NCBI GenBank assembly: GCA_914767715.1
Contig: OU612066.1
Span: 18,948,283 to 19,008,282 of the forward strand
Direction: 5' to 3'
Length of the DNA stretch: 60,000 nt
Origin: Membranipora membranacea
Lineage: Eukaryota > Bryozoa > Gymnolaemata > Cheilostomatida > Membraniporidae
In this document: in pieces, positions 2,100 through 44,209 of the stretch
Layout: every line of letters starts with the position of its first letter
Numbering within the stretch: position 1 is the first letter of the stretch
Program-made: the position numbers and the translations under genes
Notes under the pieces: generated by a model
What the model was told of the DNA's origin: nothing
Databases searched by the model: none
The model's input: the letters and a program-made list of their open reading frames with translations, nothing else

Positions 2100-5000
2100 A
2101 TGTATACTTTGCTTAGTGGACTATACAGACATATCACACAGAAAGATCAATACTACATTCTCATTCTTGGGCTTGACAATGCAGGAAAAACTACCTATTT
2201 GGAACAAACACAGACTAGGTTCAACAACAACTACAAGCCTACTAATTTAGCAAGAATAACCACAACTGTTGGACTGAACATAGGTAAAATAGATATTGGC
2301 AAGATGAGATTTAACTTTTGGGATCTCGGAGGACAAGAGGAACTACAACTCTTGTGGGATAAATATTATGCTGAATGTCATGCTGTGGTATATATGATAG
2401 ACTCGGCAGAAACCTCAAGGTGAGTGTATGCATTAATCTTCACCAGCTTATATATAGATTTCAGGGGACTGCTCAGAAAATAATCCCTTTAAAAATTCTG
2501 TAAACTATAACCACTATGTACTAAAAGGCATGATAATTTGTAATTAGGATCATCTATCAAGTCATTGTACATGATGAAGTTGTAATTATAGATTTGATAT
2601 TGCACCCTATACTTTAACCAAGGAGTTGCTGACTGCTGTTGGTCCTTGCTTTAACAAAAACATACCTGCTTGTATAGTATGAGCATTCATTCAAAACCAT
2701 TCCGAATGCCAATCACGTTAAAGTTGAAACAGAGCACTTGATATGATTGATATTCTATGGGGAGCTCTGAGCATAGCTAATTTGGAGAAGAAGAAGAAGT
2801 AATACTGTTTGGTTTGATGAATTTTGCATGATTTGGTTGAGACAAAATAGGGATGTATAGCCTTGTCACCCGTGGCTGCAAGACCAGGCTAAGGGATGTA
2901 GGATTCTAGTGGTTCTCAAATTTTCTATAGAAAGTTGCCGTGAAAAGCCAAGTCTGTTGAATGCCCAGCTTTATCAAAAGTAACATTTGACTAGTCTACT
3001 ACTGATTAATATCATGTAAAACTTGGGCGTTACTTCAAGGGATAATATTTGCTTCTGATTCCGTTTGACAGTCAATGAAGCACTAAAAAATGCATATTTG
3101 TACGAGAACTCTTATTTTGTAAAGCAAAAACCCTTGTTCTGCTGAAATATACATTCATAATTGAGATTTTGCATCTCTAACAACAGAAAAGACAACTGGA
3201 AAAATCTCCTTTGAACTGAAATAAGCAGATTTTTCTGCAGTTTTGTGCTCCTGCCTCAAAGTTCGGAGTGGACCAAAGGGGTTGGTTGGAGTTGAATTCC
3301 GGATATTTGACCTCGAATCCAACCACAGATCGGATATGTGATAGGCCAAATCCGAGATGATTTTAAAAAAAATTTTCTCTTAGATAGTACATACCTTGCC
3401 TACAGCATATTGAGAGAATGCACATTGAGCTCATAGGTTCAATTTCAAATGTTTATTTGAGCAGAACAAGGGTTTGTACATTACAAGACCCCTTGTCCTT
3501 GTTTGAATGTATATAAAATTTTCAGCCCTTAATTGGCTAAGTTTCTAACATAGTCCATTTTATGATATCTTATGTGAAGAGTGTCATTGTGTGTCCCTGC
3601 TACCTTGATTGGTTGTTAGATTGGATACAACTATAGACTTTTATAGAGATAGAATTTTATTATTAAATCTATCGTTACTATTATGTGGAAGTATCAAGTT
3701 TTTCACTACCACGAGTTCTCCGACCATGTTATGAGAGAGCACAACTCCCCTTCTGAATGAAGGAAGCTTGAGAGAGGGGTGTTAACAGGGAGGGTGGTAC
3801 AGCCCTCCCTGGTATCAATATGTGCTGTTCATTCGACGGTTTTACATAACACCAAAAGGATGAATGGCACAAATCAACACTACTCTCCAGAGCTCTGTCA
3901 AGTCGGTCAAACGTACACCAAGATGCGACTTATAACGTTTAACTACTCCACTCATGGATGACTTAACCCAGCACCATAGAGTAGGGGATAACTCTATGCC
4001 CAGCACTGGTTCTCCAGATATGATGAAAATCCCTTCTAACTTCATTTTATCATTTTGCAGTTTTCTTATCATTGACAAAATACAAGCTATTGGTTCCACT
4101 TATGGCCTACTTATAGCACCATGATTTAAACAAGCAATCTTTTTATGACATGCCTAACAATTCTGTAACATTTGGCAATCGTGTCCATGTTCCTCAAAAT
4201 TAAACATCAAGTTCAGCGCATTATAATAAGGGCTGAAGATGTTGAAGTATGTAGCCTCTCCCTCTTGATCAATACTCAGTAATCTTCACTGTCCTCAAGA
4301 TGAGGAAATTCCTGAAATTAGATTTTTTGAAAATAGAAGAATATGTTGCAGTGTCTAAACAGTGAAAACCAGATATACCACAATAAACTTGGGTTGTTCT
4401 TCCAAAAGTGGTTAGCTTGTATTATTAATCTATCTCCATCTTTTACATATGAGACTTGAAATACTGACCTTCTTTTTCATGCATTTCGAAGGCTGCTTAG
4501 ATGGAATTTAGTTTTGGACTTTCGACTGATAAAAAGTTAAAGTCAGGGGTACCAAAAGTACTTTCATTGTCAACAACTCAATTGGCTTGTTACATTTTGC
4601 TATTAATATTATAGTAAAAAATATATTTTCCATACAAGCCAAATTTTCAGCTAGCTTAGTTTGTTGTATACATAAGGCTATATCTGAGTTTGGTATTGAA
4701 ATATTGAGCTATTTTTCATGTATTTGATAGGGTGTCTGATGAATTTCATTTGAGATTTTCCTGTGAAAAGATCCTTAAAACAAAGGCTTTTCTTGTGTGG
4801 ACATAGAGGATCTGAACTCTAGATCAATGTCTATTCTAGGTGAAGCACATACTCTCAGCTTTAGGACACCATTTTATATGTGCATCGTATAGTGAAGGTC
4901 TTCATGTTTTACTATCGGATAGCACCAAATTGTAGTTCACAATATATGTATTTTATATATATGACTGCTGATTCGTTTGAAGGGAACATTATTTCATAGA

Positions 5001-5325
5001 TATTCCTGTCACTCCGATATTTTTATTTTCTATTTGTAGGTTCCAGGAATCGTTAGAATCGTTTAACAAAATGATAGTCAATGAGCATTTGAACGGTGTA
5101 CCTCTTCTTGTGATAGCTAACAAACAGGACTTAGAAGAAAGTGTACACATACCTGATATAAAAGCTGTGTTTAACACAAGTGCACAGAAAATTGGGCAAA
5201 GAGACTGCAGTGTAATGGCGGCTAGTGCCCTGAAAGGTGATGGTATTGATGAGGGAATTGAATGGCTAGTTAAATGTGTTGCTAGGAATAAGGAGAGGCG
5301 TCCACCAACTGAACCTGATTTGTGA
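2100..5325 (+). CDS. ARFRP1: ADP-ribosylation factor-related protein 1 (Golgi small GTPase)
   Basis: Two coding exons, 2100-2419 and 5040-5325, join in phase 2 (GTGAGT donor, TATTTGTAG acceptor) to give 201 residues, exactly the length of the human protein. Visible motifs are the P-loop GLDNAGKT (24-31), WDLGGQE (74-80, with the catalytic Gln79), NKQD (134-137) and SAL (169-171). Unlike most Arfs there is no Gly2 for myristoylation; the Met-Tyr start agrees with the family, in which N-terminal acetylation directs membrane binding. The family acts at the trans-Golgi, upstream of ARL1 and golgin recruitment. The 2.6-kb intron carries three micro-palindromic insertions. AATAAA signals lie at 5799 and 5920. 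No disabling change is seen. Confidence 0.97.
2619..2648. mobile_element. Micro-palindromic insertion, CAAGGAGT family (30 bp)
   Basis: Begins CAAGGAGT and ends GGTCCTTG. It is flanked by CTTTAAC at 2612-2618 and 2649-2655, a perfect 7-bp direct duplication. It lies in the ARFRP1 intron. Confidence 0.85.
2858..2891. mobile_element. Micro-palindromic insertion, TAGCCTGTC family (34 bp)
   Basis: Ends TAGCCTTG and CCAGGCTA, the same length and ends as 41896-41929. It is flanked by AGGGATGTA at 2849-2857 and 2892-2900, a perfect 9-bp duplication. The interior is diverged, but the target duplication is intact. Confidence 0.85.
3786..3811. mobile_element. Micro-palindromic insertion, CAGGGAGGG family (26 bp)
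   Basis: CAGGGAGGGTGG is followed by its near reverse complement ending CCCTCCCTG. Flanks GTGTTAA (3779-3785) and GTATCAA (3812-3818) match at 5 of 7 positions in register, so this copy is older or less certain. Confidence 0.6.
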
Positions 5326-6013
5326 CAGTAAATATTGTGCAGGGTTTAGGTCCCACAGTGCAAGACCAATTCTTATATATTTTTAAACTGTCATGCCAAT
5401 GTTTATGATAGATAGATGCTAAAGTATTATTGAGGAATCCTGTAAAAGCAACCAATATATATATTTAATGATTCTTGCTCCGTGTCAAATGTCAATGTTG
5501 AATTGGCGCATGACTATCAGAGCGCTTCTGATGAAAATGAAAGATGCAAACTAGCGATTGCCATATAATGCAGTTGAGCCTGTCACCAACCAAAATTCGA
5601 GGGTTGTCCTCAATCCTTATTGATTCACTAAAGTGGCAGGCTTGTAGCTAAATCTCATCGAAGACTTGCTGGCATCTAGCCTTTGTTAGCATGCATATTT
5701 AAAAACCATTCAGTATGAAATCTTGTAACAGCTGTATTTATATCATGACACCAGGGAAATATTTCTGCAACCATGAATACTAGCTATCATTCATAACAAA
5801 TAAACTCTCCTATATACTCTAGAAAAGTGAAGTGTTCGCACAGGCCTGAAATCTGATATTTATTGCCAGCTAACACTATCACTCAACTTCACAACCCAAT
5901 GTAAACTCCCACCATAGCTAATAAAAGTTTGTGCTAGCCAACATTGAGTCTCCCGAACTTCCTGTGCAGTTTATCAATTACAATTAATGCCAAACGATAA
6001 CAATCACTTGATC

Positions 6014-6035
6014 CAAGGAGTAAAAGTACTCCTTG
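6014..6035. mobile_element. Micro-palindromic insertion, CAAGGAGT family (22 bp)
   Basis: An almost perfect palindrome of CAAGGAGTA and TACTCCTTG ends with a four-base centre. It is flanked by CTTGATC at 6007-6013 and 6036-6042, a perfect 7-bp duplication. Hardly any sequence remains besides the inverted ends. Confidence 0.9.
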
Positions 6036-6186
6036 CTTGATCGCTCAAAATCCATGCTGTGAGCGATTTCAGATTGAGATTCCCTCCCCCAGCCACGATT
6101 GATTAGAGAGTGAATATGGCTGTTTCTTTGTCAAACTAAACATAACTGACCAGGGAGTTTGTCCCATCCTTCCTGCCCCTTGCTAG

Positions 6187-6204
6187 CAGCTCCCACCCTC
6201 CCTG
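6187..6204. mobile_element. Possible reduced CAGGGAGGG-family insertion (18 bp)
   Basis: The element carries one full end (CCCACCCTCCCTG) and a short opposite end (CAG). Flanks TTGCTAG (6180-6186) and TTGCTAT (6205-6211) match at 6 of 7 positions. A separate CAGGGAG end lies just left at 6151. Confidence 0.45.
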
Positions 6205-6484
6205 TTGCTATCAGTGATGATTGTTGATAATACAAGTTATCTTCTCTTGGTGCCAAATGAAAACTTATGTGACCAATCACAAACCTAGCTTGTGTGCTGC
6301 AAAGTATCATAGCTTTGTGGCTGGATCCGAGAGCCACCCATAATTATTAGCTGCACAGGATACACGTCTGCATCACTCAAAGTCACATTCTAGACTGGAA
6401 GAAACTTACTTCTTCATTTACTGAGATTTGGATGTTCGAGTGAACTAAACCACCCAAGTAGATTGATTAATTGAAGATGCAATC

Positions 6485-9400
6485 ATGAAAAACTCTACTC
6501 AAACACAGGGTGTTAATGGATTTTCTTGTAAAGTAAGACTTTTCAGAGATGAAGAGGCCATAGATGTGAAGTTTCAGGTATGTATGTTTGTAGTGTATAA
6601 ATTATAATTTAATATATTTATAATGAATAATAATATTTATAATGATAATCTTATGTTTGTTACTCTTACCAAGGAGTGTCTCTAACTCCTTGCGTCTTAC
6701 CAAGCTCTTACTTGCTATAGATATAGATAGGTTGTTTTGTCCGTATGCATAATCTATTAAATTAACCAGTTTGTATGTGTGTATGAGTTCAGGAAGAATG
6801 GAATTCCATTCTCCCTGGTGAGTTTTGGAAGAAAGTTATCGTAGCCATGCATGCATGTCTACTCAAGGAGTATTTTACTCCTTGGTCTATGTATTATATG
6901 TATGTTATGCATTGTTATTGTATGATTATCATGATTGATAGTTAGTAGAAGCAATGAACTAGTTTATTGGTAGTTCATCATTCAATTCATTGGTAGTTCA
7001 TTGGTAGAAGGTTACATTCTAGTTAGAGGAAAGTTAGTTCAAGGATTTAGAGGGAACTCCTTGCTGGTTAGTTCAAAGAATATACTTCTCGCTAAGACCA
7101 TTAGATAGAACTACCTCATTTATCTTTTACTCCATTGATGGTTGAACCATGGAGTAAACTCTTTGGTAGAACAAACAAACTTCAAATTTAAGACAGTAAA
7201 ATATGTCATAGTACTCATATGTCTGTGAATCCTGAATCCAGTGTTTTGTCATATTACTCGCTGCCATAAGAAATAAATCAAGTCACGTTGAATTTGTTGC
7301 CCTCCATTTATTATTTGTCAGTCTATCCGGAACTTTGCTTTTGCTGAATACTGTAGGCCTATACTAGAACTCTGGATACACGGGCAACTCATCTGACCCC
7401 AGATTTACATAATAACCAGCCTATTTCATTCATTCATTCATAATATGTAAATATAACTAGAATATAACTATTACTAAATATTGTAGCCCTATTGTACAGT
7501 CAATCATCAACAGTCTGTGTTCAACTTGTAGGGATCAGTGTTTTCATGATTGTTTGTTAGCCAGTTAGGGAAAATAAATCAGTGCGGTAATTGCCTATGC
7601 CTATGTGTAACTTAGACGTTTTGCGATTCTCATCTGGTTTGTAGAAGCAAGTAACTGGAGAGTGGCTATTGGACTATGTGTGTAAAGAGCTGAATATCGT
7701 CGAAAAATATTATTTTGGACTTCGTTTCACTGATAATTTACAGCGCAGGGTAAGTCATATTTGTTTACATAATACACTTCGCTAGTCCCTTATGCATTAT
7801 TGAGTAGGAAGGCGATGAATAATGACATCATTTAAAGAGAGAGTTAGTTATTAGTTTGCCAGTCGGAGTCCTTATTGTTTAACAGCCATTGCATGTTTTA
7901 TCTGAGATTAAGAACTTGGCTGATTATTGAATAGGTTCTAACCTCAGATGTGTAAGTTGTGATAGGCTATGGTAACGATTTAAGTGCATCTTTCAATGTA
8001 TAAATGCAAGGTCGCTAAACTCCTTACATTTTTTCATATTGTAGCAATGGCTAGATTTGACAAAACCCCTGCTGAAACAAGTTAAAGGTAAGCTGACGTA
8101 GTAGCCTAATCAGAACAAACTGCAAAATCGATAGCCTAATCCCTAAACTATCTTTAGTCTAGTCAATGTTTCTTTAATTTCTTTATTCACTCAAGCCACA
8201 GTTTTAGTTAGACAGTTACAGCAACCATTTGCACTTGAAACTTAATTAACTTAATGATTTTGGAAACTATAACCAAGGAGTATTCCTCCTTGCTATAACA
8301 TAGCCAGTTAAACTGCTCACCCTCCTTCTATGTGTGTAGTTTATCATCACTAGCATTGATATTATATGAAATTTTTTAGACCCAATGCGAGAGTCAATAT
8401 GTTTTCGAGTGCGTTACTATCCTGCTTCACCAGAAACCATCAAAGAAGAGCTAACTAGGTAAGTATCAGATAGCCATCAAACATAATTGAACTTTCAATG
8501 AAATATTTCAGACAAGGACCTGAAGTATGTCGCTTGTTTACAAATAATCCCGAGTAGGATTATCGGACACTATAGTCTCTGGGATCATGAAATGCGGTCA
8601 TATTAATACCCATTGCTGGAGGGTGAAAGCTGAGGGTAGATACCAGTGTTAAGTATCGTGTAAGTAGTCATATAACTAAAAACCTGAACATGAAATATTT
8701 AAATTAAGTTCTGGTAGGCTACATAAAAAAACGTAGCGTTAAATATAAATTCGACTTTTCAATATGCAACACATAAATGTGCTTACAGATATTAAGGATA
8801 GTTATTCAGTCTGGTATTGCCATTCTCTATTAATTACCCACTAGCACAACAAATAAAACACTATCTATCTTACTATCTATCTATCTCACTATCTATCTAT
8901 CTATCCTTATACTATCCTTATCCTTGTTATTCTTGAGACTATCTTATTTATCACACAAATATAACTCTTATCTGTGAATACTGCTATTTGTGCAGCTTTT
9001 TTTTAACCTACCCCAGCCCCACTAACTTCACTGATACATCTACCTTAACTCTTATGCATGACTATTTGGGAAAAGCATTTTTAAATAAACTCCCCATTTT
9101 CAAGCTGGTAATTTTCATTCATACATGGAGCAATCGTGGTGCGCTGATTAGATACTTACTCTTGAGATACATTGTCCTGAGCACCAACTGAGCGGTTAAT
9201 TAAAATGAGAGAACATTGTGACATTCTGAACTCTCTTAACCATTACAATTAAATATGTGTGAATATTTACCAGTTAGATTTAAAACGCAGTTGATAATTC
9301 CATAGTTGTATTATATACAATAGCCCAGTGGGTTCTCTGTGAGAATTTAGGACAGCTCTTTGACTTACGCTTCGATCTCCTCCCCCACAGCTTTTCTCTT

Positions 9401-15400: not shown

Positions 15401-18400
15401 AATAAAATATTTCCCTGCCTCACGGCCAGTCGAGTCCTCTGCTGACACAGATCTTTTAATTTAGTTTTTTTTCGAACTCTGTTCTTTCTAATTCATTTCA
15501 GGAACACTTGAGCGATTTGATGGTCTTTGTCTGTTTGTTTTAGGATAAATCCACTGAAGAATCGCTGCACATCGGTGCAAATCATGCAGGCATATCTATG
15601 TTCCAGAATTTCAGAAGAACTAAGCTTCTCAAATGGTTGGTACTGTACACACTTGAGGAGTGCAGGAGGAAAACTTTCCCATTTGACGCATGCTTGAAAT
15701 AGCCAACTTCAGAGCTAGCTAACATTTACTCACCCTCATAACTTTACATAGGCTCCCACCCATAGACTTTATATATACTTATAATATATTAAGTCTATGC
15801 TTCGACCTAAACTATCCAAAATTAAATTGTTTGTTATTAAACTTGCTACCATTTACTTCTCTAGGGTAATTATACATAATATAAATTATACATAATATAA
15901 ATTAGGAATCTGATCCAGCAGGTTACATTCTATCTTGATTGGATGTGCTGAAGTTTGCAGCAATAGATATCTGATGATTCAAATCTTAACCTCAAACCCA
16001 TGACTAGTTACAGAAATGCTTATAATGAGCTGGCGGGGATAGCTGGTTCCTGCCACAGTTTATAACACATCAATTCCCTACAATGATTCTCCGGTATTGC
16101 AAAATTAAAATAATCCCTTCACCGTATAACTGCCAAAAATTAGGGCCTGCTGCTGAAGATTGTCTCAAAAAATATTATTCTTGTTCTCAACTTGTATGTT
16201 TTAGGGAGAACTTTGTCAAGTGTAATGTAGATGGTAGAGTTGTGAACATAAGCTTGTTTTACAGCAATTTGGATGAGGTATGTTAAATGCTTATTATTAT
16301 TTCAAGATACTATAAAAGAAATGTTTCCAAAATGTGAAATACTCCTCTTCATTTTGTAGTTGGTTTTCTGCTCTTGTTGCACTCTCTTCCAACCTTCCTA
16401 TAATCTCATTTTCTTCTCGCTCAGCTCAGTGCTATCTACTAAACTCTTAGAATCCTGAATATGATGTAAATCTGTGGCCAACAGCTACAAAGCAGTCATT
16501 GGATTGGTCTGCTATTCATTCTTAAAAACATTTCGAATTTCTACACCTAAAATTCAGTTGACAGTTAGGTCGTGTATTATTAACTTAATGCTTAGAGTGA
16601 GAATGGTAGTTCAAGCAGGGAGGATGGTATATCCCACCCTCCCTGGTCCAAGGTATTTATTCGTCGCAGGTGACTGGGAATTATCTTCCCTATTTGTTCC
16701 TTGTTACCTGGAACATGTAACATTGGTCGGTCAAACTTTCTAATCTCAAATATACCAGTTGCAGCAGGCATGCTGGTAACTGGTGTCTGCATTTTCATCT
16801 ATTTGGGAAGTATCAGACCAGTATGGGGCACAACAGCTACAAGAGTGTGCACCTGAAATCTATTGTCACACTACTCTGCTTTTCATTTCTCTGCTTGTTT
16901 CTCTTTCATCACAGAAACACAAGAAGCAGTCTTTGAAGTATAAATGCCCTGATGAACACACAGCTAAGTTCTTGTGGATGAACATATTAGATCAACACGC
17001 TTTTTTCAACCTCACATCTCACCATCAGGCTAAACCCATCAAGTCTGGAGGCCTGTTCAAAAGGAGTAACAAGTTTCGCTTCAGGTAACTAAGCATTCCA
17101 AGCTATCCTTTTATAGTAAAAAAGTGATTGATCCCTGTAATTTGTTGGGGTCAGTGTAAAATAAAGACTGAGATCACTGTGCCGCTTCACTGTGACTGAG
17201 ATCACTGTGCCGCTTCACTGTGACTGAGATCACTGTGACTGAGATCACTGTGCCAGAGATCACTGTGACTGAGATCACTGTGCCGCTTCACTGTGACTGA
17301 GATCACTGTGACTGAGATCACTGTGACTGAGATCAATGTGACTGAGATCACTGTGCCTGAGATCACTGTGACTGAGACCACTGTGCCTGAGATCACTGTG
17401 CCTGAGATCACTGTGACTGAGATCACTGTGACTGAGATCACTGTGACTGAGATCACTGTGCCACTGCCTTCACAATGTCTCGGCGGTAGTATGCTCTACC
17501 TACAAAATACCCTAGAGGAGTAAATAATATTAGCTAGAATTTAGTTTAGCTTGTTCGGGATAACCTGATATTAGCTAGCCCAAACTTTGCTAGCTAAGGT
17601 GTGAAAAGGTGCACTTTCCCTCCTGCTACTTGACTGATCTACGGTAGCAGCGGTGCAAAGGATGCTGGTAGATGCTAGGTGATCATTTGTTAACTAGTAG
17701 ATATAGAGGTTCTCACAAGAGCAATTAGGCCGAATTTTTTTTGTTTTGACCCTTAATTGCAATAAGTTTCACACTGTCACATATAGTATACAGTATGATT
17801 TGAGCTAACAATGTTCGGAAGCCGAGTTGACCTTGAAACTTTACATTTTATTGACATTCTCCTTCATGTGGCAGAAAAATGATTATGAGCATGATTGTTA
17901 TTTTTTTATCAGTGGCCGTGTTTATGACGAAGTAGTGAATGATAGTAACAAGATAGCACGCATGCCTCCTAGCTTCATCAGGGCTTCATCCCTGTCCCTC
18001 AACAGAAGTCTCAGTATTCGCAGTACGTCCAGCCGGAGACTAGCACCTCCATCAAACAGATATAGTATGGGAGCCATGCCACATAGTCAGTGTGAGTATC
18101 CCTCGATAAGATGCTTCTGGTGATACAAAGCTATGTTTCCAATAGGACACTTTCTGTCTCCCCTGGCTGTAATGATTCAGGTTGGTTATGATTCAGAAAA
18201 AAACGGTCCATTAAAACACTAAAGAGTCTCAAACTTTGATGTTTTATTGTTCATCTGGACTGGAATTGTCAGTTATAACAGTGTGAAAACTGGAAACATC
18301 ATAAGACACATTATAAGGTAACCTATATATTTTTAGCACTGCCAATAGGATTTAAAGGGGATTTGATCTCTGGTGATCAGTCTTCCCACTTGGCTCTTGG

Positions 18401-23560: not shown

Positions 23561-26025
<2,465 letters not shown>

Positions 26026-32500: not shown

Positions 32501-35500
32501 TATTTTGACTCCTTCTATTGCTACTGACCTTGAAACAGCAGTTTGGCACTAGCCATTGCACTGGTGATCAGCATCCCGAATTTGGGCTTATTTATGGAGT
32601 TGCCTTCTCTCCTTTTTGTTACCCATTAGCACACGCAGCATAGGAAAATGTAGCTGAAATTTGTTTTTGGTTCAGCATCTGCACTGTTGAAGACTCATGG
32701 GAAAATAATTTTGCAACCCGGATGCTCATTTGTATCAATTTCTGCCTGTTAGGCTCACTAATTTTTCTGGAGTTTTCCATCAATTTGTCACTAAAATTGA
32801 GATAATAAGCTTTCGATGCTGATTTGGTTCAACCATAAACATATAAATACTTTTATATGTTTATGGGTTCAACAGTATCCAAATGGAGGGAGGACAAATC
32901 CGAGAAGAGGCTTTTTATTAGGTTATTTGTCATGGCTTTATATCCCATATCCCACTCATGTCTGATTTGTGTATATCGGGGGAGATTGTGTGAGACATTG
33001 AACCGCCACAAATAACTTCTGATTTCATTTCTAAATCAAATAACCTGGTAATTTGACAAGGCCTGCATTTTGGGCAGACAGGAACTGGTCTCTGCAAAAA
33101 TGAGTCTCACAATTACAAAACCATCTGATTGGCTTCCCGCTTTTTGTGCCTGAGTTAAGAGTTATCTTCTACTGTCACTTCACTATCAGCCAGCGCTAAT
33201 TACCAATTCATACAGGTGTTCTCATACCCTGCACTGATGTTAATTTTAGAACATGAACTTAACCCATTCTACTTGCACAGGCACAAATCAAAGTCTTGCA
33301 TGATTCATCATTACCCTTACAACATTCAGTCTACATGCCCCGTCAAGATCTACTGGTCATACACAAAGTCGAACCTGCTTTAAACATGGGCTAAACTTAT
33401 AAATATATATTTGTATGCATATGGCCCTTTCATACTTATGTACTGAATAAACAACTTATTTTAAAAAAGCCAGAGGCATGCCACAAACAGAAGTCCAGTT
33501 TCCTTAATTCAATTAAATGATAGTAGTGAAAATTAAAGATGAAAGTTACCATTACAGTTTTTAAAGCTGAATGATGGTACAAATGAATATTTGAGAAAGC
33601 TTTTCCTGTCTAAAAACACTGAAAATGTCATTGAAGTTGTTTGTTTGGTAGACATCTGATGATTGGGAAGATGGAAACAGACTGAGTGCTTCTGTAGCAA
33701 ATTCACACAGCACACGGTTTGTTTTATACAAGCGCTCCAAATCTGTTGGCAGTGGTGACAGTTGGAACCTCAAATCTAAAGATGTAAGTTGAGTTTTTGC
33801 TTATATTAGAGCATATTTAGAAATATGTCCTGATATATGCAGGCAATGATAATTATCCGTAATAATGGAGCTTCTCTTCACTGTCTCAAATTTTCCATTA
33901 CTTAAAAAAACTCTTCAAACTCAATCAAGAAAAACTTTCAGTTGTTAAGAATCTACGGGGGAGTGTGCATATAAATTCTTCATGTTTTTTCAGATCAAAG
34001 CTCGGTTACAGAGAAAGGATAACTCTGGTGGTATTCGTTCATCTCAAACAAATCCTCGCTTCAGTCCTGTTCCTGTAATCACAACCACATTATCGCCTTT
34101 CAGCAGTCAACCAATTAAAATACCATCAGCTGCAGCGGCAGCCCAAGGTGGTCAGGTTCTCAGGGGCACACCTGGGAAAGCGAGAGCTAGCGTCGAAGGC
34201 CTCAACACGGTAACAAACTCCTCTATACTGACTTGACGACTAGATTTATTCATCTATCAAAGATTTCCGAGTCATAAACCATATTGCGTATAATTAAAAT
34301 GAAAATGAGGCCATGTCTTGTACCTCCTCCCTTGTTAAAGAATCATAACTTTGCTCGTATGTAAATACAAGCTCGGAATTCATCTCAGTTTTTTTGTTGT
34401 TGCAGGAAGTGGAAAAGTTGATCATCTCATCAGGCCTCATGTCTCTTAACGATGATGACACAACATATACTCGAGCACTGGTGAGAATGTTACCCTCATG
34501 TTAACTTATACCAGCTATTTTTGAGGATGCCAGCGAGCAATTGATGATTTTGTCCCGCCATTTGATTAGATTTTGATTATGGAGAAATCTATAAATATCC
34601 TTTATATGCTCTGATAAGAGACGTAGTTCTTTTAACCTATTCCGCATACTTCCTAACGTAAAATATTAACAACATAGCTATATAATGTTGTAGGGGAACA
34701 ACTTTGATTACCCGGATGGTCACCGCGCCCCGGTACCATGTCTGCTGAACAGCCATCGTAGTGTCGATACTCAAACTCCCAGTCAACATGATCTCCCCCA
34801 ATATAACTGTCCATATGAAAACCTCGGAGTAGAACCGCTCAGTGATTACAACAGCGGCCGTTCTAGTAGTCATGCCTCAACAGACACCGAAGATCTAAGC
34901 AGACCACAATCCATTAGCCCTAGCTCATTCATAATAGGTATGAGATCAATGTGCATATTTACTCACTCTACTCCATTTTTTGCCTGAATGATGTTTACTT
35001 CTATACAGTCGTTCATGATTCAAGGAGGTATGTTCATTTTAAAGTGAAAATGCAAAGTCTTTTGGGCAACTAGCCATCTACTGCTAAAATAACATGTACA
35101 TTACTTTTTTAGGAACTCTGGATATCGATGAAAATGATTCAGGTAAATTTTATTTGCAATATCAAACCACAGTTTTGCGAGTTAAACCACTGTTGCCACA
35201 CAGCCAAATTGTGCCTATAGAATTCTGTATAGCTCAAAACTAATTTAATGAAGCTGCAATCTCAGCATTGTCACCTCATGAGCAAATAATTTGCACAAAC
35301 TGATGGTAAAAACTACGATACGAAATTAATAATCTACCGTATCATGTGACGTATCATGTGACGTAGTTACAGTCTTGCTAGTGTAAATTTTACACTTTAT
35401 GAGGTCATGAGCTAGTGCACAAATTTCATGCCCTGATTTTGAAGATCAGTTTGTGCAAATTGGTTGCCCATTGGCATTAGGTGACAATTCTGATATTAAG

Positions 35501-37412
35501 TCTCAATTAGTTTTCTTGGAGCTATACAGAATTCAATGAGCACAAATTTGCCTGAGTGACAGCGGTAGTCGAGGCCACATCTCTCTCCAAGGTAACGAGA
35601 AATTTGATTTAATTCGAAATTGAAAATGTTCCAATTGGTCTCTAAAAACAGATTGATTTTGATATTCGTCAAATGTGCACGATTGGAATTTTTTAAGTAT
35701 AAACATATAAATACAAAATATTTATATGTTTATGGGCTCAAAACACCGGAGTGTGATCTATTTGGCTATATTGTTCAATTTAAAGACTACAGAAATTCCA
35801 AAGCAATATATGGTCTGGCAGCTAGTGGTGCAGTAGCTATGTAATATTCTTACACTGAAAAAATTCAAAGGACTTCTGGGAAAGAGAGTCTTGCTAATAG
35901 AACATGATATTGCGTTTGTGCCGCTATATAAATGTACCAATAACAGAGTGTGTTTATGCTGATGCGGCAAACTGTAGAAGTGTGTCTTTACCTAACACAT
36001 TATATATAATCACAATCATCATATGTGACTCTTTGTTTAGTCAGGATTAGGTATAGGTTGTGGCCTGTGGGTATGATGATAACATAATGTGATACTTTTC
36101 AATTATATAGAAATAGTCAGAACAGGGTCAACCTCAGCCAACAGTCCGAGACCAAATAGTGGGGAGTTCAGGCGTTTACCTCCTGATGGTGCTGAGAAAT
36201 TGAAGATCGTCGATGAAATGTAAGTTTTTATACTGCAAACCATAGACATCAGAGACATTACTAAGGCTCTTTTAATTTGATAAATTGCATTATTAGACTG
36301 AATACATGAGAATTGATGTAAAGAAAAACTTTGTAATGCTTACCTTGTATAGTTAAATGCTCCAATAAGCGATTAAATGCCCCTGTCATGAAGTCACTCC
36401 CAAACTAGCTAAACTAAACTGCAGCTAATAATTTGCTCCTCTAGCGATTTATAACTCAGGAATACAATTCCTAAAACCACTTCCACACTCTGACCTAACA
36501 TATATAACCACCAACTAGTTTTATTATACGTTAAAAGTAAATTCTGAGGAAGTTTTGTATTATTTTGCCATCCGGGTTATCCTGGCCGTCAAGTATCTGA
36601 TTTCAGCGTTTTCATGTACCCTGTGCTGTGTTGCATAAATTGGACAAAAATATTGTGTCCTGGTGGGAATCGAACCCTCACCTCTCGCACCAGCATATCA
36701 GCACTCTACCAAGATCTTGAGTGCAAGAACCCTACCTGCAAGAACACATTCTTGTCGGCCACAGCCTTACATTGCTAAGTGACATCGTTGTCGGTAAGGT
36801 CTCAAAGTGATTGAAAATTGAATGTCACTATCAGCGACCCGGGTAGAGTTTGAGCATTCCAACAAGTATGAGTTCTGCTCTTTCCAGATTTGGCAATCGT
36901 TATGAGGTCAGGTTAACTTTGATATCTCATTCCCTGAGGCAATCTCCCATTACCCAAATTTTGAAAATGTTTTGAGATTCCCTCAGGCTGATCAATGAAG
37001 AGTGAGTTCATTGGGCTGATTATGTCATCAAAACGAATGAAAAGCCATGGGGTATATGACAAGAGCCGCATGTAACATCACGGTAACCACTAACATTGCT
37101 GCTACCTGTCTGTCAATAACTGCTCATTTGCCTGATAGTAGACGGCTGCCCTCCAAACTTAGCTTTCGTTGATTATTCAGTAATACACCAATATTAAACA
37201 CCTATGTCTGGTACTGGTTTGCCATCACCAAATGATAAACAAATATTTATTTGTACAGAGCTTCCGTACCGATCATGAAAAACTTTCTCAAGCCCCCAAT
37301 GATGAGTGTCGGTAACCTACAACCGAGTGAGCGTTCCGCATTTAGCAGTCTTAACAAAGCTACTTCTGCAATAATGAGATGCAAGTCACCGATACTACAG
37401 GAAAGTCACTGA
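29515..37412 (+). CDS. GLCCI1/FAM117-family protein
   Basis: Nine exons, 29515-29761, 32267-32490, 33652-33783, 33994-34209, 34406-34480, 34694-34937, 35113-35142, 36111-36219 and 37259-37412, close in frame to 476 residues. Blocks recalled from GLCCI1/FAM117 proteins recur in order: SLDNINLYLSGQWPKDG (94-110), KRSKSVGSGDSW (about 184-195), the EVEKLI block (274-279), YPDGHRAPVP and SVDTQTPS (304-328), and PRPNSGEFRRLPPDGAEKLK just before exon 9. The N-terminus is Ser/Arg-rich and low in complexity. GLCCI1 is a glucocorticoid-induced, dynein-light-chain-binding protein in vertebrates; the role here is unknown. It includes a 30-base microexon (exon 7). The introns host foldback elements. Confidence 0.82.
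29925..30306 (+). repeat. Rep1 fragment (5' part)
   Basis: Closely matches 21728-22110 (shared words ACCTCTACATGGGGAACCAC and GGGCACCCCTAAAATAGTCA). It stops at the CATTCAGTTGTC word and continues into unrelated A-rich DNA. First intron of the GLCCI1-like gene. Confidence 0.85.
30354..30704. mobile_element. 350-bp foldback element (GCTTGGTTCACATTGTCCCAG ends)
   Basis: A nearly uninterrupted inverted repeat: the two arms of about 170 bases meet near 30529, and the words GGTTCACATTGTCCCAG and CTGGGACAATGTGAACC terminate it. TA dinucleotides lie at both outer edges (30354 and 30703), compatible with a TA target as used by Tc1/mariner-type elements. It contains many CCCAGAT/ATCTGGG units and no coding sequence. 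Confidence 0.85.
31377..31426. repeat. Exact tandem duplication of 25 bp
   Basis: Two identical copies of a 25-bp unit that starts CGACCTACTGTAATG, in intron 1 of the GLCCI1-like gene. Confidence 0.9.
32115..32190 (-). repeat. tRNA-like segment, SINE candidate
   Basis: On the minus strand there is a B-box-like GGTTAAAATCC preceded by a possible A-box and followed by an AT-rich tail with T runs. A functional tRNA cannot be folded convincingly. Class and limits are uncertain. Confidence 0.35.
32834..32865. mobile_element. Micro-palindromic insertion, CATAAAC family (32 bp)
   Basis: CATAAACATATAA and TTATATGTTTATG ends surround six bases. It is flanked by GGTTCAAC at 32826-32833 and 32866-32873, a perfect 8-bp duplication. 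Second intron of the GLCCI1-like gene. Confidence 0.9.
35186..35570. mobile_element. Inverted-repeat element of about 385 bp
   Basis: The arms 35186-35300 and about 35435-35570 are reverse complements with divergence (shared words GAATTCTGTATAGCTC and TTTGCACAAACTGAT). The centre holds a short ATCATGTGACGT repeat. No coding sequence. It directly follows the microexon of the GLCCI1-like gene. A related single arm may lie at 15145-15195. Confidence 0.7.
35698..35734. mobile_element. CATAAAC-family palindrome without clear duplication (37 bp)
   Basis: ATAAACATATAAATA and its reverse complement surround five bases, the same ends as 32834-32865. The first base is T instead of C and the flanks do not match, so its target duplication has decayed or was lost. 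Confidence 0.6.
36655..36725 (-). repeat. tRNA-derived sequence (SINE head or tRNA remnant)
   Basis: The minus strand shows a perfect B-box GGTTCGATTCC (36666-36676 complement) within a T-arm GTGAGGGTTCGATTCCCACC-like context and an A-box-like TTGGTAGAGTGC about 30 bases before it. The acceptor and anticodon stems do not pair well, so a functional tRNA is unlikely. It sits in the last intron of the GLCCI1-like gene. Confidence 0.55.
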
Positions 37413-38002: not shown

Positions 38003-40057
38003 AGCACAAACAGCAGTCAAGCATGTGCAATTATGTCTTTCTTGACTTGTTCAGATGATTTGTGGCAACAATACCTCTACACACCCACTCGTACTTAAAT
38101 TTCATTAATACACAGTGGTAGATCTGTGCTAGACATTGGTATTTTTATTTGTTAATTTTTTTCTCAATAATAGTTTTATCGATACACTCCCTAAGCTCTC
38201 TGGTTTTTATTATCTGCAATACTTGATAAATGTACAGAAGATTATACGGTGAAGAGTGTGTGCACTTTTTAACATGATTTGATTAAACCAGAATCAAAAC
38301 AACAGGTGTTTTCAAACTATTACATGATAATAATGATCTCTAATACTGTTTTGTGTTATCATGCATTAGTAGTAATAAAAAACTGCAATTTCAATGTGCT
38401 TTAACCCTGATTAAAAATTTTTTTTGAATAGTTACCACTAAATATGCACTCTTTTCTATGTGATAACATTACATGCTTATCAAAAACTATTTGTCATGGA
38501 TGCTTACTCCATGTTTTGCAAGATGTTAACATGGGTAGTTTTGAAATTGATGATGAGATGCACATTCGGTGTTGTGTCACAATATTACTACTTACTCTTA
38601 GCCCATTCATATTTATCCTATGTTCATAATGTTACTTGTTATCACTTAACCTTTTAAATATTTTTGTTGTATCATTTATACCTTGCCATGGTCGTGTAGG
38701 TAAACTTTTTCCCCCTGTTTCTTCTCACTCTTCTTACCAGTATCAATGTGTGTGCAGTATGAATTCTCTCAACTCCTTCAACAATGTTTAAACCCGTTCA
38801 GTTCACTTTTGTAAAAAGCAAAATCTTTGAGAATAATAAAAATCTGTTGATCTGTTTGGTATTTCTTCATGAAACAGAACACATACTTACTGTACTTTTT
38901 TTGTATCATTGTAATTCTCGTAATACATTGCGAGTTGCAATGTATAGGGACTTACTGTGCACCATACCTGCCATAAAACGATTTGAATTCTGATTTTCAA
39001 AATTTTGTGGGGTCCTGATGGGGTCTTCCCAGGGTTATCTCCCCTGCAGGAAACAATAGCAAAAGAGCAGAGATAAAGAAGAGCTATCATTCGTAAATGT
39101 CTTATAATACTAGATCCCTTGAGATGGGATATCATTTCTAAGCTTTTTGCCTCCACTGCAGACTTCGAGCCTGTAGTTGAGGGACAACTTCAAATCAAGA
39201 AATCTTTCAAAAAGTATCAGCATCTTGAGAACCTAATATAAGAGCTTGTATAACTTCCAGAACACTATAAAATGATATATGGTGACCCTGCACTTGTCAT
39301 TTCTATGGGTGCCCATGACATTGTGTCAGTACGTAATCTTGCCATAATGGGTAATGTGTTTGGGATTATCTTTTGCATTTATGCAAAAAGAAAATCAGCA
39401 GCTCCGCATCCACAGATGGAATGAATTTGTTTACCCTGGGACCAGTCTAGATTACAATTGTTGTTTGATGACCAGTAACTTGAAGCATTGTGTTATAGAC
39501 TGAATGAAACACAACAGTCATTATAATTATTGTGCGCTGTCAGCTAGTATATACTTTGGACATTGTACAAAACTGCCACAAGTACGGATCAAAGTTTTCC
39601 ATGAGAATGAGTGTGCCATAGTCGACACTAAAAGGAGCCAGTCATTAGGTTAGACTTGACCTTCAAATTGAGAAATTTGAGTTTTTTTGTCTGTTTTTTA
39701 AAATACATAGCTCTAGGAACTTTAAAACCTGTACTTTCAGATTATCACTATGTTAAAACTGTACTTACACTCAATCACATCTAAAACTAGTAGGGTTGTT
39801 TGACTCTGGAGCAAATATAATCCTAGATTGAAATCATATTTACTCATGTGAATTTTGACAATTTTGGTTATCTTTGTGACACAATAACTGGAGTTGTAAT
39901 TGATATTTTTGCTTCAAATCTTTTGCCGAGTGATTGTTAAATTGTGCTTTATGTGATGAAATATTTACAAGCATTAAAAAACAGTCTGCAGACGAGCGAG
40001 CATGTAAAGCAAATTTCGGACCTGTTTTTGTTATAATTCAGAGGAGGTGGTGTATAG

Positions 40058-40108
40058 CCAGAGACTATAGATAATAGTCTATAGTCTAGTCTAGTCTATA
40101 GTCTCTGG
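40058..40108. repeat. Palindrome CCAGAGACTATAG...CTATAGTCTCTGG
   Basis: Inverted arms of about 13-20 bases, built from repeated CTAGT/CTATAGT units. TATAG flanks both sides (40053-40057, 40109-40113), but that word also occurs inside, so the 5-bp repeat may be coincidental. Confidence 0.55.
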
Positions 40109-41170
40109 TATAGCTATAGATGGGTGTATAGCACAAACAGAGTGGTTGAAATGGGCTCCTACTCAACCATACAGATGATAGTGATATAATATAATAGCCA
40201 CGCAGCTAGGTGGTGCCTTGGTATAATACTACTGAGGAGGAAAGTAAACAGAGTATTGTGTATTGATGATTAATTGAATCTGAAGTTTTTATGTTAGAAT
40301 ATTTTTAAAACTACATTTGGAATCAGCTTCCCAAGTGGCATGTGTATGTTAAATTTCATGGAAATTGAGCAGTAATTATGAATTATGATGTGTCACTATG
40401 GAAGGTCGAGCCAGTAGCTTTCCGATCATCTTAATGAGCCAACAAACTCCAGGATTCTCCAACGTACCTATGAGAGGAAGCACATGCCGTATAGTGCAGG
40501 CGATTGTTGGTGTATATACTGAGTGTCAGTCATGCTCATGAGAATTAGCTGATTTCGGAAGGGTAATATTAGCCTATTTAATAACCTGGCGGCGTCAAGT
40601 TATTGAACAGAATAGCAACAATGCAATTTGATCTTAATAATTTCAGAAAGAGTGACTATTTCAAAAATTTCCACGTGATAGATTCATTTTGTTCAAAAAA
40701 GGATTGATCAGGGGTGGTAAAAATGTCATGCAGTTTTTTCTGCCTTTTAGGTGATCTGTCTATTGGCCTCTATTTATGTGCAGTTAGGTTGAATCGATAC
40801 ACATATGGCCACGTATTATTGAAGGTGATGTGTTCAATGATGTGTTCATGTGTTACCTCAGGTATCGTGCAAAGTGACAAAAATGATTATTCTTTAAATG
40901 ATCAATGTCAATTGTCTCCTAACAGAATCTGATGTTGTCTTCTATCTAAAAGCAAAACAATGTGATTAACTTTGATGTTTTCCGTGACCCTGTCTCGGGT
41001 TGAGGTGTTAAAGCGAAAATAATACAGCATTTTGGTTAGCATGATTCAAACAATGCATAATAATCATTCCTTTATATCTTCCTGCCTTGACTATTCCTTC
41101 TAGGTGATCTCTATATATTTTTCGTCGAAGCAGAAATGTTATCTCTCACCTGTCCTATATCAATACGGAT

Positions 41171-41206
41171 CATAGACCTACTAATAATATTATTAGTAGG
41201 TCTATG
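41171..41206. mobile_element. Micro-palindromic insertion, CATAGAC type (36 bp, perfect)
   Basis: An exact 18+18-base palindrome starting CATAGACCTACTAATAAT with no spacer. It is flanked by ATACGGAT at 41163-41170 and 41207-41214, a perfect 8-bp duplication. The absence of any arm mismatch suggests a recent event. Confidence 0.9.
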
Positions 41207-41394
41207 ATACGGATACATCTTGGAATATTGAAAACCTTTTTCCATTGTGTTGACCAATCAAGCGTTGATTGTATAACTCTTTAAAAAATCTTATCAAAAG
41301 TCAAATGAAGTCAAATGGTACCATATTTAAATCCAGCAAAGTGAAGAAGAAGTTGAGTTATTGTATTCGATCCCTTACAACAACATGTTTCATC

Positions 41395-41673: not shown

Positions 41674-41895
41674 CTCGCCAATGTATTATCACTGTTCGGA
41701 TTTTACCCACCCAACAGCCAGTCGGGTCAAAGAGTCTTTTACACCTTGGTCAAATCAATCGTCTACACCCCGAAACACCAGCTAGCCAAGCTGTAGATCA
41801 TATCATGAACACAAAAACCGAGAAACCCAGAGTAGGACAAAGATTGATATGGGTGAATCGCCTTCAGAAAGACCTTGAACAAGTATATATAACCC

Positions 41896-41929
41896 TAGCC
41901 TGTCTTAACAAGCTTGTTAAGACAGGCTA
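41896..41929. mobile_element. Micro-palindromic insertion, TAGCCTGTC family (34 bp, perfect)
   Basis: An exact 17+17-base palindrome starting TAGCCTGTCTTAACAAG. It is flanked by ATATAACCC at 41887-41895 and 41930-41938, a perfect 9-bp duplication. Confidence 0.9.
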
Positions 41930-42259
41930 ATATAACCCCTCAACCAAGCACTCGAGGTGTCACAAGATAGAGTGAAGTGGAGGCATGTTGTACACATATA
42001 TTGAGATTGAGATGAATAGAGGCTCTCATGGCGTCTGAACAAAAACATTGTACTTAAAAATCTTTTATGCTCACAAGCTATATGCCAACCATTTTTGTAC
42101 CAAAATATCACTGTACTATTTTATCACCACCCTTTCATCTTGCCTGCAAATAGAGGTCTTTTCTACGGAAAGCCGGTGGGCCATTGCTTGTTGCTTATAG
42201 AGAGAGGGATTATATGTACTCAATACTCAATAAGAGAAATCATCATAGTCATGTCTCAA

Positions 42260-42338
42260 CAGGGAGGGTGGGATATACCCTCCCTCCCTGCTCCCACCAA
42301 TGAACTAAACCCCTAGTTCATTGCTCCCACCCTCCCTG
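42260..42338. mobile_element. CAGGGAGGG-family element (79 bp)
   Basis: Ends CAGGGAGGGTGGGA and TCCCACCCTCCCTG, with an inner palindrome AATGAACTA...TAGTTCATT. Flanks GTCTCAA (42253-42259) and GTCTGAA (42339-42345) match at 6 of 7 positions. It is the longest member seen and may be closest to the ancestral form. Confidence 0.8.
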
Positions 42339-42867
42339 GTCTGAACAGACTACATCTGCACAAGACAAGACAAGGGTTGTCTTCTCTTAAAGGTGACAGT
42401 GTATGTAATAATACCATTTCTATAAAAAACCTTTGACCTTTCTACCACAATGCACTTCCCAGAGTATCCGGGAGTGTAAATAAAGATTCAACTATTCTAG
42501 TGCACTAACCTATATTTAGAATAAAATCAACAGAAAATACAAAATCTATTGAGATGTGTATTATGGTGCACTTCCTTGCTCAAAGCTAGTTTGAATGGAA
42601 TTGGGTTGTTAAAGATGTGCTGCTTTTAATTGTAACATGTAACACCCACTCTCTGTCCAAAGTAGACCACTTTCTTCTAGATCGATTCGATTAATTAAAT
42701 TTGAGTATTACTTACTATTACTTACTCCATTATGACTTACTAAAACTTAGTTTAGCTAGAAGAGCTTAGTAAGTTTAGTTAGTTACCTTTGAATACCTTT
42801 GACGACATTGAACACCCAGTTAGAGCTAATATTACTTGATTACTCAACCACCACCATCATGGGCACC

Positions 42868-42974: not shown

Positions 42975-43177
42975 ATGGCATATAAGGCACATAAGTCCAA
43001 TGTATCTTTGCCAAGCTATCAGGCAGGTAGCATGTAAATATGTCCATTATCATACTGAACAATGGTAATTGAAAGTAAAGGCGTGTAACTTCCAGGGTCC
43101 CGCCCTATGATGATCACAAGATATTTAAATATATACAGTACACTGCACGCTTACGTTACTATTAGAAGTAGCTCAAC

Positions 43178-43203
43178 CAAGGAGTCTTTTAGTACAGTCC
43201 TTA
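43178..43203. mobile_element. Micro-palindromic insertion, CAAGGAGT family (26 bp)
   Basis: CAAGGAGTCT opens, CAGTCCTTA closes (final G changed to A). Flanks GCTCAAC (43171-43177) and GTTCAAC (43204-43210) match at 6 of 7 positions. Confidence 0.75.
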
Positions 43204-44209
43204 GTTCAACAGTGCAACACAATGACCATCATGAGTTTTTCGTTTCATGGGTTATATAATTTATATATATGTGCTGTGTTGTACAAACAGTGGGTACACC
43301 TATACATGGGCATCTTGAGATGCAAGCACATATACTTAACTTTGACATTCACTACATGGAAAGTATTGTAACTGCTGTTCTAGATACCTATGCTAAATGT
43401 ACTATGTGTGTATGTGTAAGTGTTGTGTGTAGACTGCTGTGGTGAGTTAGTAGAGGGTAGTAACTCAACTCAATATCATTGGCCGCTAATTATTTTTATC
43501 ACTTGATTGAGTAGCTAGCTAGTCTTAGTTCTAGATTATATTGGTATAAGGCGAGTTCAGTTGTCTATCTTGTTACCTGAGTTTCATGCTTGCAGGCCAG
43601 TGGAATCAATAAAAACCAAAGTGTGCCTGATCAAAGGTTCTTAAACTTGCACACTGTCTTAGCACACTTTACTAGTTGGAAATGCCAGACCCAGTTCTCA
43701 ACGAAAGCAACCTGCTGCGCACCTGCTATTGATTGCATAGTTGTTGCATAGTTTTGTATGCATTTGGTTTACCTGCTATACTATAATCAGTAACCCTTAT
43801 GCACTTATGCATTTCAATTGTCATTAGGACATACTACCTGATAACTATCTCACAAAGTGAATGATATAGAAAGTATTTGGCCAATATTAACCAAACTAAA
43901 TCACATCAATTTAGCATAGGCTAAATACCTCTGCAGTCTTTCTCCCAAGCCATTATGTTGGGGTTTACAAGTATAAATTATAATAAATATAACAACTAAC
44001 AAGGACAGTAAATTACACAAAATGAATCCACACAAGAGACTTGCCCTTGTTAGTAGTAAGAAGGGAGTGTCGTGTCTTTCTGTAAATAATATTGATGAAT
44101 TAGAGTGTACAGCAAAGCAAGAAACACCCACTTTTCATTCGAAGTAATCTCATAGCAACGAACAAAAAAAGCTAAATTTACCCACACAATGACATAGAAT
44201 GATATAGCT

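Follow-up and report, generated by a model that had tools for sequence, protein, structure and literature searches.

The window analyzed here, a 60,000-bp stretch of the Membranipora membranacea genome (C2:18948283-19008282 of an assembly of 339,339,785 bp in 18 contigs), contains short palindromes with arms CAAGGAGT and ACTCCTTG that lie between short direct repeats, and the present analysis concerns these micro-palindromes, their sister families, and their relation to DNA transposons of the P superfamily. A first-pass annotation had described seven CAAGGAGT copies as insertions with 7-bp target duplications, and all seven were found where it had placed them. Five of these had been said to carry perfect, abutting 7-bp repeats; this holds for 2619-2648, 6014-6035, and 8274-8292, where the repeats directly adjoin CAAGG...CTTG, whereas the two others need a slip of one or three bases, and the copies it had given as partial do match at 5 of 7 (6864-6884) and 6 of 7 (43178-43203) positions. 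The genome-wide search that the annotation had called for returned 3,084 matches to CAAGGAGT(N0-30)ACTCCTTG, compared to 4 for a reversed-pattern control. Flanks were read in the window and in pieces from the start of contig 1 (twenty of 10 kb, nineteen of 300 bp, and one of 600 bp); the contig 1 samples follow contig order and are non-random, and the 200 kb were picked by CAAGGAGT palindromes, not by repeats. In this sequence, a perfect 7-bp flanking repeat was present at 31 of 47 exact-arm CAAGGAGT palindromes and a repeat with one mismatch at another 9, with 2, 3, 5, and 7 mismatches in 3, 2, 1, and 1 palindromes, respectively; a perfect 6-bp or 8-bp flanking repeat was found at none of the 47.

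Scans that did not start from a known arm gave the same repeat length. Without tandem masking, the window scan was overwhelmed by tandem repeats; in the masked window, perfect 7-bp arms combined with a perfect 7-bp repeat in 5 cases, compared to 0-1 in 12 offset controls, and arms with one mismatch combined with a perfect repeat in 8 cases, compared to 0-5 in controls. Under the loosest rule, which allowed a single mismatch in the arms and another in an 8-bp repeat, the masked window gave 17 cases against 7-20 in controls, i.e., no excess. When the window and the 200 kb were scanned together, 6-bp arms with a 7-bp repeat occurred in 31 cases (offset controls 1, 1, 0, and 0), all 31 of which start with CA (CA...TG), and 6-bp arms with an 8-bp repeat in 8 cases, 6 of them with CA (controls 1, 1, 0, and 0); 5-bp repeats (13 versus 2-14) and 6-bp repeats (7 versus 2-6) showed no clear excess over controls. 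The masked-window, offset, and reversed-pattern controls thus bear out the annotation's view that the set is not random, and the repeat counts together with the genome-wide excess indicate that the CAAGGAGT insertions and their 7-bp duplications are real.

CAAGGAGT is one of seven families with the same layout, its six sisters each having their own 7- or 8-bp duplication. Allowing at most one mismatch in the arms and counting perfect repeats, we found 7-bp duplications for CAAGGAGT (36 of 55), CAATGAAC (10 of 12, two of the ten being copies in one local duplication), CAGGGAGA (2 of 3), and CAGAGACT (3 of 5), and 8-bp duplications for CATAGAGT (2 of 2), CATAGACC (2 of 4), and CATAAACA (2 of 4). 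Duplication length therefore appears to be a property of the family. The CAAGGAGT repeats also share a base preference: 88% have T at position 2, and 88% have A at position 6 (36 sites, both strands counted). By a relaxed rule, the window holds 18 distinct scars of the scanned families (20 rows, two of them double-listed), some of which may be due to chance, and the 200 kb of contig 1 hold 20 distinct scars of families other than CAAGGAGT (22 rows before de-duplication), for which controls with a displaced right repeat gave 0, 2, 0, 0, and 0. If 20 per 200 kb is typical, the genome may hold tens of thousands of scars. Those mapped in the window are collected in the table below; where a CAATGAAC scar is nested inside a CAGGGAGG scar, the nesting gives the order of two excision histories at one site.

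Table. Scars mapped in the window (positions within the 60,000-bp stretch).
Family	Scar	Span with repeats	Flanking repeats	Remarks
CAAGGAGT	2619-2648	2612..2655	CTTTAAC (2612-2618, 2649-2655)	15-nt filler, short stubs
A-type (CATAGAGTTATCCCC...)	3975-3998	3967..4006	CCCAGCAC, 8 bp	stubs 8 + 15 nt, one base between
CAAGGAGT	6014-6035	6007..6042	CTTGATC	stubs 13 + 9 nt, no overlap
CAAGGAGT	6670-6692	6663..6700	CTCTTAC / C(G)TCTTAC	one extra base on the right; stubs ~8 + 15 nt; by eye
CAGGGAGA	6790-6817	6783..6824	ATGAGTT/GTGAGTT	1 mismatch
CAAGGAGT	6864-6884	6857..6891	GTCTACT/GTCTATG	5/7
CAATGAAC	6952-7003	6945..7010	GTAGAAG	long filler resembles its own end pieces
CAAGGAGT	7040-7063	7033..7073	GTTAGTT	right repeat after 3 extra bases, CTG
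CAAGGAGT	8274-8292	8267..8299	CTATAAC	
CAGGGAGG	16616-16645	16609..16652	GTTCAAG/GTCCAAG	
CATAAACA	32834-32865	32826..32873	GGTTCAAC, 8 bp	
CAATGAAC	36993-37013	36986..37020	GGCTGAT	
CAGAGACT	40059-40107	40052..40114	GTATAGC	filler
B-type (CATAGACCTACTAATAATAAACC...)	41171-41206	41163..41214	ATACGGAT, 8 bp	
CAATGAAC within CAGGGAGG	42298-42323 within 42260-42338	42253..42345	CTCCCAC (inner); GTCTCAA/GTCTGAA (outer)	nested
CAAGGAGT, decayed	43178-43203	43171..43210	GCTCAAC/GTTCAAC	6/7
CATAAACA	56166-56212	56158..56220	GTTGAGAA, 8 bp	

For two of the 8-bp families, full-length elements with the same ends were found. The genome contains at least 102 matches to PF21788 (P transposase GTP-binding domain) and at least 78 to PF12017 (P transposase helix-turn-helix domain), numbers that count matches and not copies. 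Reading outward from two pairs of transposase-domain matches, we located the ends of element A, which is 5,972 bp long on C2 and has a copy at 98.9% on C10, and of element B, which is 4,933 bp long on C2 and has a copy at 99.9% on C1. All four copies, A1, A2, B1, and B2, have terminal inverted repeats and their own, distinct 8-bp duplication, and the first 18 terminal bases match at 18 of 18 positions in A1, B1, and B2 and at 16 of 18 in A2. The A end reads CATAGAGTTATCCCCC... and the B end CATAGACCTACTAATAATAAACC...; they are the arms of the window palindromes 3975-3998 and 41171-41206, respectively, and the stubs in CATAGAGT and CATAGACC scars correspond to these ends. In B1, PF05485, PF12017, PF21787, and PF21788 lie in one frame and PF21789 in the next, so that the THAP, helix-turn-helix, RNaseH-N, GTP-binding, and RNaseH-C domains of B extend over two open stretches. 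The single frame of A1 that was scanned contains PF12017, PF21787, and PF21788, and a phmmer search of A1 against PDB gave no match. Judged by transposase domains, inverted repeats, and 8-bp duplications, A and B are P-superfamily transposons.

Intact B ends number 116 in the genome (59 + 57, at most 2 mismatches; control 0). Among the 100 listed, many stand in facing pairs that span about 0.5-12 kb, and others are solitary; spans near 2.5 kb and near 0.47 kb are seen repeatedly, so that B derivatives with internal deletions seem either to have multiplied or to lie inside larger repeats. The 116 ends would serve about 58 elements, compared to 149 places, not all of them B, that match the CATAGACC(N0-30)GGTCTATG pattern genome-wide. 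Elsewhere, a locus at C3:34638653-34639717 with a copy at C11:7308093-7309157 carries a 762-aa open frame with P-transposase domains and could represent either an intact element or a co-opted gene; the two copies belong to a long duplication, hence no element ends were readable there. Two loci from other transposase groups (L059 and L060) gave no convincing end pair with target repeats.

The B scars consist of the ends of this known full-length element between two target copies, and their interiors are truncated B ends joined with short microhomology or filler. In 44 of the 50 listed CATAGACC places, the B end continues past the eight-base seed for at least 11 nt on one side; the six non-B places include four copies of one 39-mer whose flanks are alike at all four (two identical, two with few substitutions), indicating a single scar carried by a larger repeat. 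Filler-free joins of two stubs account for 28 of the 44 B scars, with an overlap of 0 nt in 5 of them, 1 nt in 8, and 2 nt in 15; the overlap averages 1.36, which is more than the 0.77 that random joins of 8-23-nt stubs would give (P = 0.0005; 20,000 draws). In the other 16, 1-15 nt of filler is present, which in some cases amounts to no more than point changes in a stub. Flanks were compared for 20 B scars, i.e., the first B-type places listed on C1 plus one on C2: the 8-bp repeat was perfect at 17 and had one mismatch at 3, and among the 17 perfect cases, 74% of the outer positions were G...C.

A comparable anatomy was seen in the CAAGGAGT family when the palindrome was not required. A single 16-nt CAAGGAGT stub matches at 1,181 places (590 + 591; control 0), and 16 loci, none of them in the sequence sampled above, were taken from the first 100 matches listed. 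At 14 of the 16, a 7-bp repeat lies no more than 90 bp away (perfect at 8, with a single mismatch at 6), compared to 0-3 of 16 (perfect 0-1) when the left flank was shifted by 8-32 bases at the same loci. Second stubs of 13-14, 7-8, and 3-4 nt all occur, and in some scars the second stub is missing, so that the palindromes noticed first are the subset in which both stubs retain about eight bases. The one-ended scar at locus L079 reads CTCTAAC-CAAGGAGTTAAAGACA-CTCTAAC with no second stub, and at locus L065 the stub passes directly into the repeat, again with no second stub; a one-ended piece between intact 7-bp repeats is hardly a mobile unit. We decomposed 46 CAAGGAGT scars (those with at most 2 repeat mismatches, plus two imperfect-arm scars added by hand) into 30 filler-free joins with overlaps of 0-4 nt and 16 with filler. 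Both 15-nt stubs are kept with 1-30 nt between them at only 12 places, where several fillers resemble end pieces. One filler (locus L002) was considered as a copy of its own target repeat, a reading that was rejected because the right stub explains all but one of its bases; another locus (L014) carries a copy of flank plus stub, which a tandem duplication would explain equally.

A parent of the CAAGGAGT scars would be expected to have CAAGGAGTTARAGAC... ends and 7-bp repeats. The window and the 200 kb contain two CAAGGAGT end pairs with 7/7 repeats. At locus L013, positions 4990-8004 (3,015 bp) show two end mismatches, and the left end is already part of a complete 24-bp scar (4990-5013) whose repeat GTAAGAC recurs past the CCTTG end at 8004; the interval 4983-8011 may represent a 3,015-bp element or a coincidence. 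Window positions 10116-19792 have four end mismatches and were taken as chance, and an inward-facing pair at C1:2509056/2511231 proved to be two separate scars.

Altogether, we consider it very probable that each micro-palindrome is the excision footprint of a P-superfamily DNA transposon. In this scheme, an element would insert and duplicate its target, and a P-type transposase would later excise it by a long-stagger cut within the inverted repeat. Each flank would thereby keep some 16-21 nt of the end as a 3' overhang, identical on both sides, and the host would then join the overhangs by microhomology end joining, presumably through a polymerase-theta-like pathway; because the joined overhangs are reverse-complementary, the scar would automatically be palindromic. 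The CAAGGAGT family would fall under the same mechanism by its CA...TG ends, target preference, and scar anatomy. One of the two possibilities raised in the first-pass annotation, i.e., remnants of larger elements that lost their interior and kept ends and target sites, is essentially right, the remnants being joined end-stubs with parents identified in two families, and the interior was most likely lost through excision of the whole element.

Several observations weigh against excision footprints as the general explanation. Two or more repeat mismatches occur in 7 of the 47 CAAGGAGT palindromes, the second 7-bp repeat was not found at 2 of the 16 single-stub loci, and CAGGGAGG has a perfect repeat at 0 of 5 places. 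The end types used to decompose CAAGGAGT scars were themselves derived from scars, which makes that decomposition circular. Of the longer elements with the same ends and a transposase that the annotation had suggested looking for, parents emerged for two 8-bp families (A and B), but no full-length CAAGGAGT element could be established from the window, the 200 kb, the solo ends, or the transposase regions: none is present up to 4 kb from two solo ends, and no convincing pair is apparent in three other transposase regions. The control for the CATAGACC pattern was 25, not 0. A TGA falls within the GTP-binding match of B1, reflecting an intron or a broken gene, and a working gene is therefore not claimed. 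The longest stub per B scar, overlap included, measures 19-24 nt in 34 of 44, compared to 17 nt in Drosophila P; it is 18-21 nt in 35 of 44 and 24 nt in one, and with the true cut not observable from scars, these lengths suggest that the stagger may be wider than that of Drosophila P or that bases may have been added.

The other possibility raised by the annotation was a 19-30-bp transposon class moving with a borrowed transposase. In favor of a 16-30-bp palindrome that is itself mobile, with its transposase encoded elsewhere, are the exact target duplications, the thousands of copies, and some identical forms at unrelated sites, such as the 16-mer found five times and the 18-mer found four times among the 46 decomposed scars. 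This reading is contradicted by interiors that vary from copy to copy as end-joins do, by one-ended scars with intact repeats, and by full-length parents for two families; moreover, the commonest forms fit joins at a self-complementary TA, AT, or TTAA in the end, and the recurrent 39-mer brings its flanks along at all 4 places. We regard mobility of the palindrome itself as extremely improbable. Miniature inverted-repeat transposable elements (MITEs) and cyanobacterial small dispersed repeats are likewise short, palindromic, and dispersed, but the scars differ from them in not being mobile units and in having repair-junction interiors and one-ended forms; variable interiors and one-ended forms also led us to reject a MITE in the sense of a homogeneous, self-transposing, non-autonomous unit.

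Another route to such palindromes would be that longer palindromic MITEs lost their centers in place via hairpin replication slippage, with no excision by a transposase. Inverted repeats are indeed unstable, replication slippage uses short homologies, and longer palindromic forms of up to 55 bp are present; nevertheless, the deletions at L079 and L065 end exactly at one target repeat and leave that repeat, many intact B ends are facing pairs about 0.5-12 kb apart and not short palindromes, and several fillers look end-copied, as in break repair. Slippage is accordingly judged very improbable. Chance, or a conserved regulatory motif of the host, would account for the palindromic shape alone, but the repeats refute both, given the controls and the family-specific repeat lengths, leaving this explanation next to no credence. 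Excision of a hAT element, considered for the nTnnn(n)An-like target, was dropped given the P parents in two families and because hAT excision is not known to leave long end stubs.

The footprint reading can be compared with known P-type systems. According to PMC10983969 and PMC7776569, the cut made by P transposase falls 17 nt inside the inverted repeat; recombination or end joining then closes the donor break (PMC7776569). In Drosophila P junctions, target copies of 8 bp enclose as much as 17 nt of one end, microhomology (such as AT or TA) or filler, and the other end, with AT and TA the commonest of the short-microhomology joins in the P{w^a} assay (Table 1 of PMC2895639). The scars described here have the same order of target, stub, microhomology or filler, stub, and target, but the Drosophila footprints were scored in engineered crosses, whereas thousands of natural ones are present in a single reference genome here. 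They also differ in stub length (17 nt in Drosophila P versus 19-24 nt in B) and in the 7-bp repeats of our main family. The Drosophila table further includes a large class with long end-target microhomology and nearly no stub (PMC2895639), a class that would escape the palindrome and stub searches used here. Galileo, a P-superfamily element of Drosophila, makes 7-bp duplications at GTANTAC-type targets (PMC4168063, PMC2775673); its duplication length and palindromic GT...AC preference resemble the 7 bp and T2/A6 of CAAGGAGT, although Galileo is documented through resident copies that have long inverted repeats and the 7-bp families here are known from scars alone. Zebrafish Pdre2/THAP9 resembles the system described here in its P-type transposase, CATA... 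ends, and 8-bp duplications, although the ends themselves are different, and the available part of PMC10983969 makes no mention of scar accumulation. Among the entries listed in literature searches, no title or abstract opening described genome-wide P-excision scars, which is not a claim of absence from print, and none dealt with bryozoans and P elements together.

Several further features of the window and samples were recorded. A separate family with TAGCCTGTCTT-like ends, at window positions 41887-41938, 2849-2900, and 298-359, has 9-bp repeats (ATATAACCC, AGGGATGTA; one mismatch in the third copy) around scars that measure 34-44 bp, and resembles joined stubs of a different, perhaps non-P, transposon. 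The palindrome CTTACTGTATCAGGTCAGTAAG at 95-116 (87-124 with repeats) has perfect 8-bp repeats (TGATTGCT) and ends unlike those of the P families. At locus L004 (2314-2391), a tandem pair of CATAGACC scars with common 8-bp repeats (ATCGCAGT / ATCACAGT / ATCACAGT) perhaps reflects re-insertion or tandem duplication. Long, near-perfect, MITE-like inverted repeats lie at window positions 30422-30633 (88-nt arms, flanked on both sides by the 6-bp TTATAA) and 11730-11850 (57-nt arms), and a 23-bp tandem repeat of about 32 copies at 47602-48331 is largely open in all three minus-strand frames. Window positions 23561-24625 encode a ZNF474-like protein, whose top named identities among the matches listed, at near-full coverage, are those of two bryozoans, 63% in Bugula neritina and 60% in Watersipora subatra.

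A mechanism thus replaces what had been supposed to be a new ultra-short class of transposon, and labeling such palindromes as MITEs in repeat annotation would be wrong. It is possible, though on balance rather doubtful, that excision is frequent in this clonal colony animal and that end joining prevails over copying from the sister, so that scars outnumber resident elements and form a genome-wide fossil record; at the extreme, excision would be regular, host-tolerated, or even programmed, and the 7-bp families would survive only as scars. The scars amount to thousands of repairs that took place naturally at breaks whose ends are known, from which microhomology use and filler synthesis are measurable in a non-model animal without experiment, and scar-to-element ratios offer a rare count of past transposon departures.

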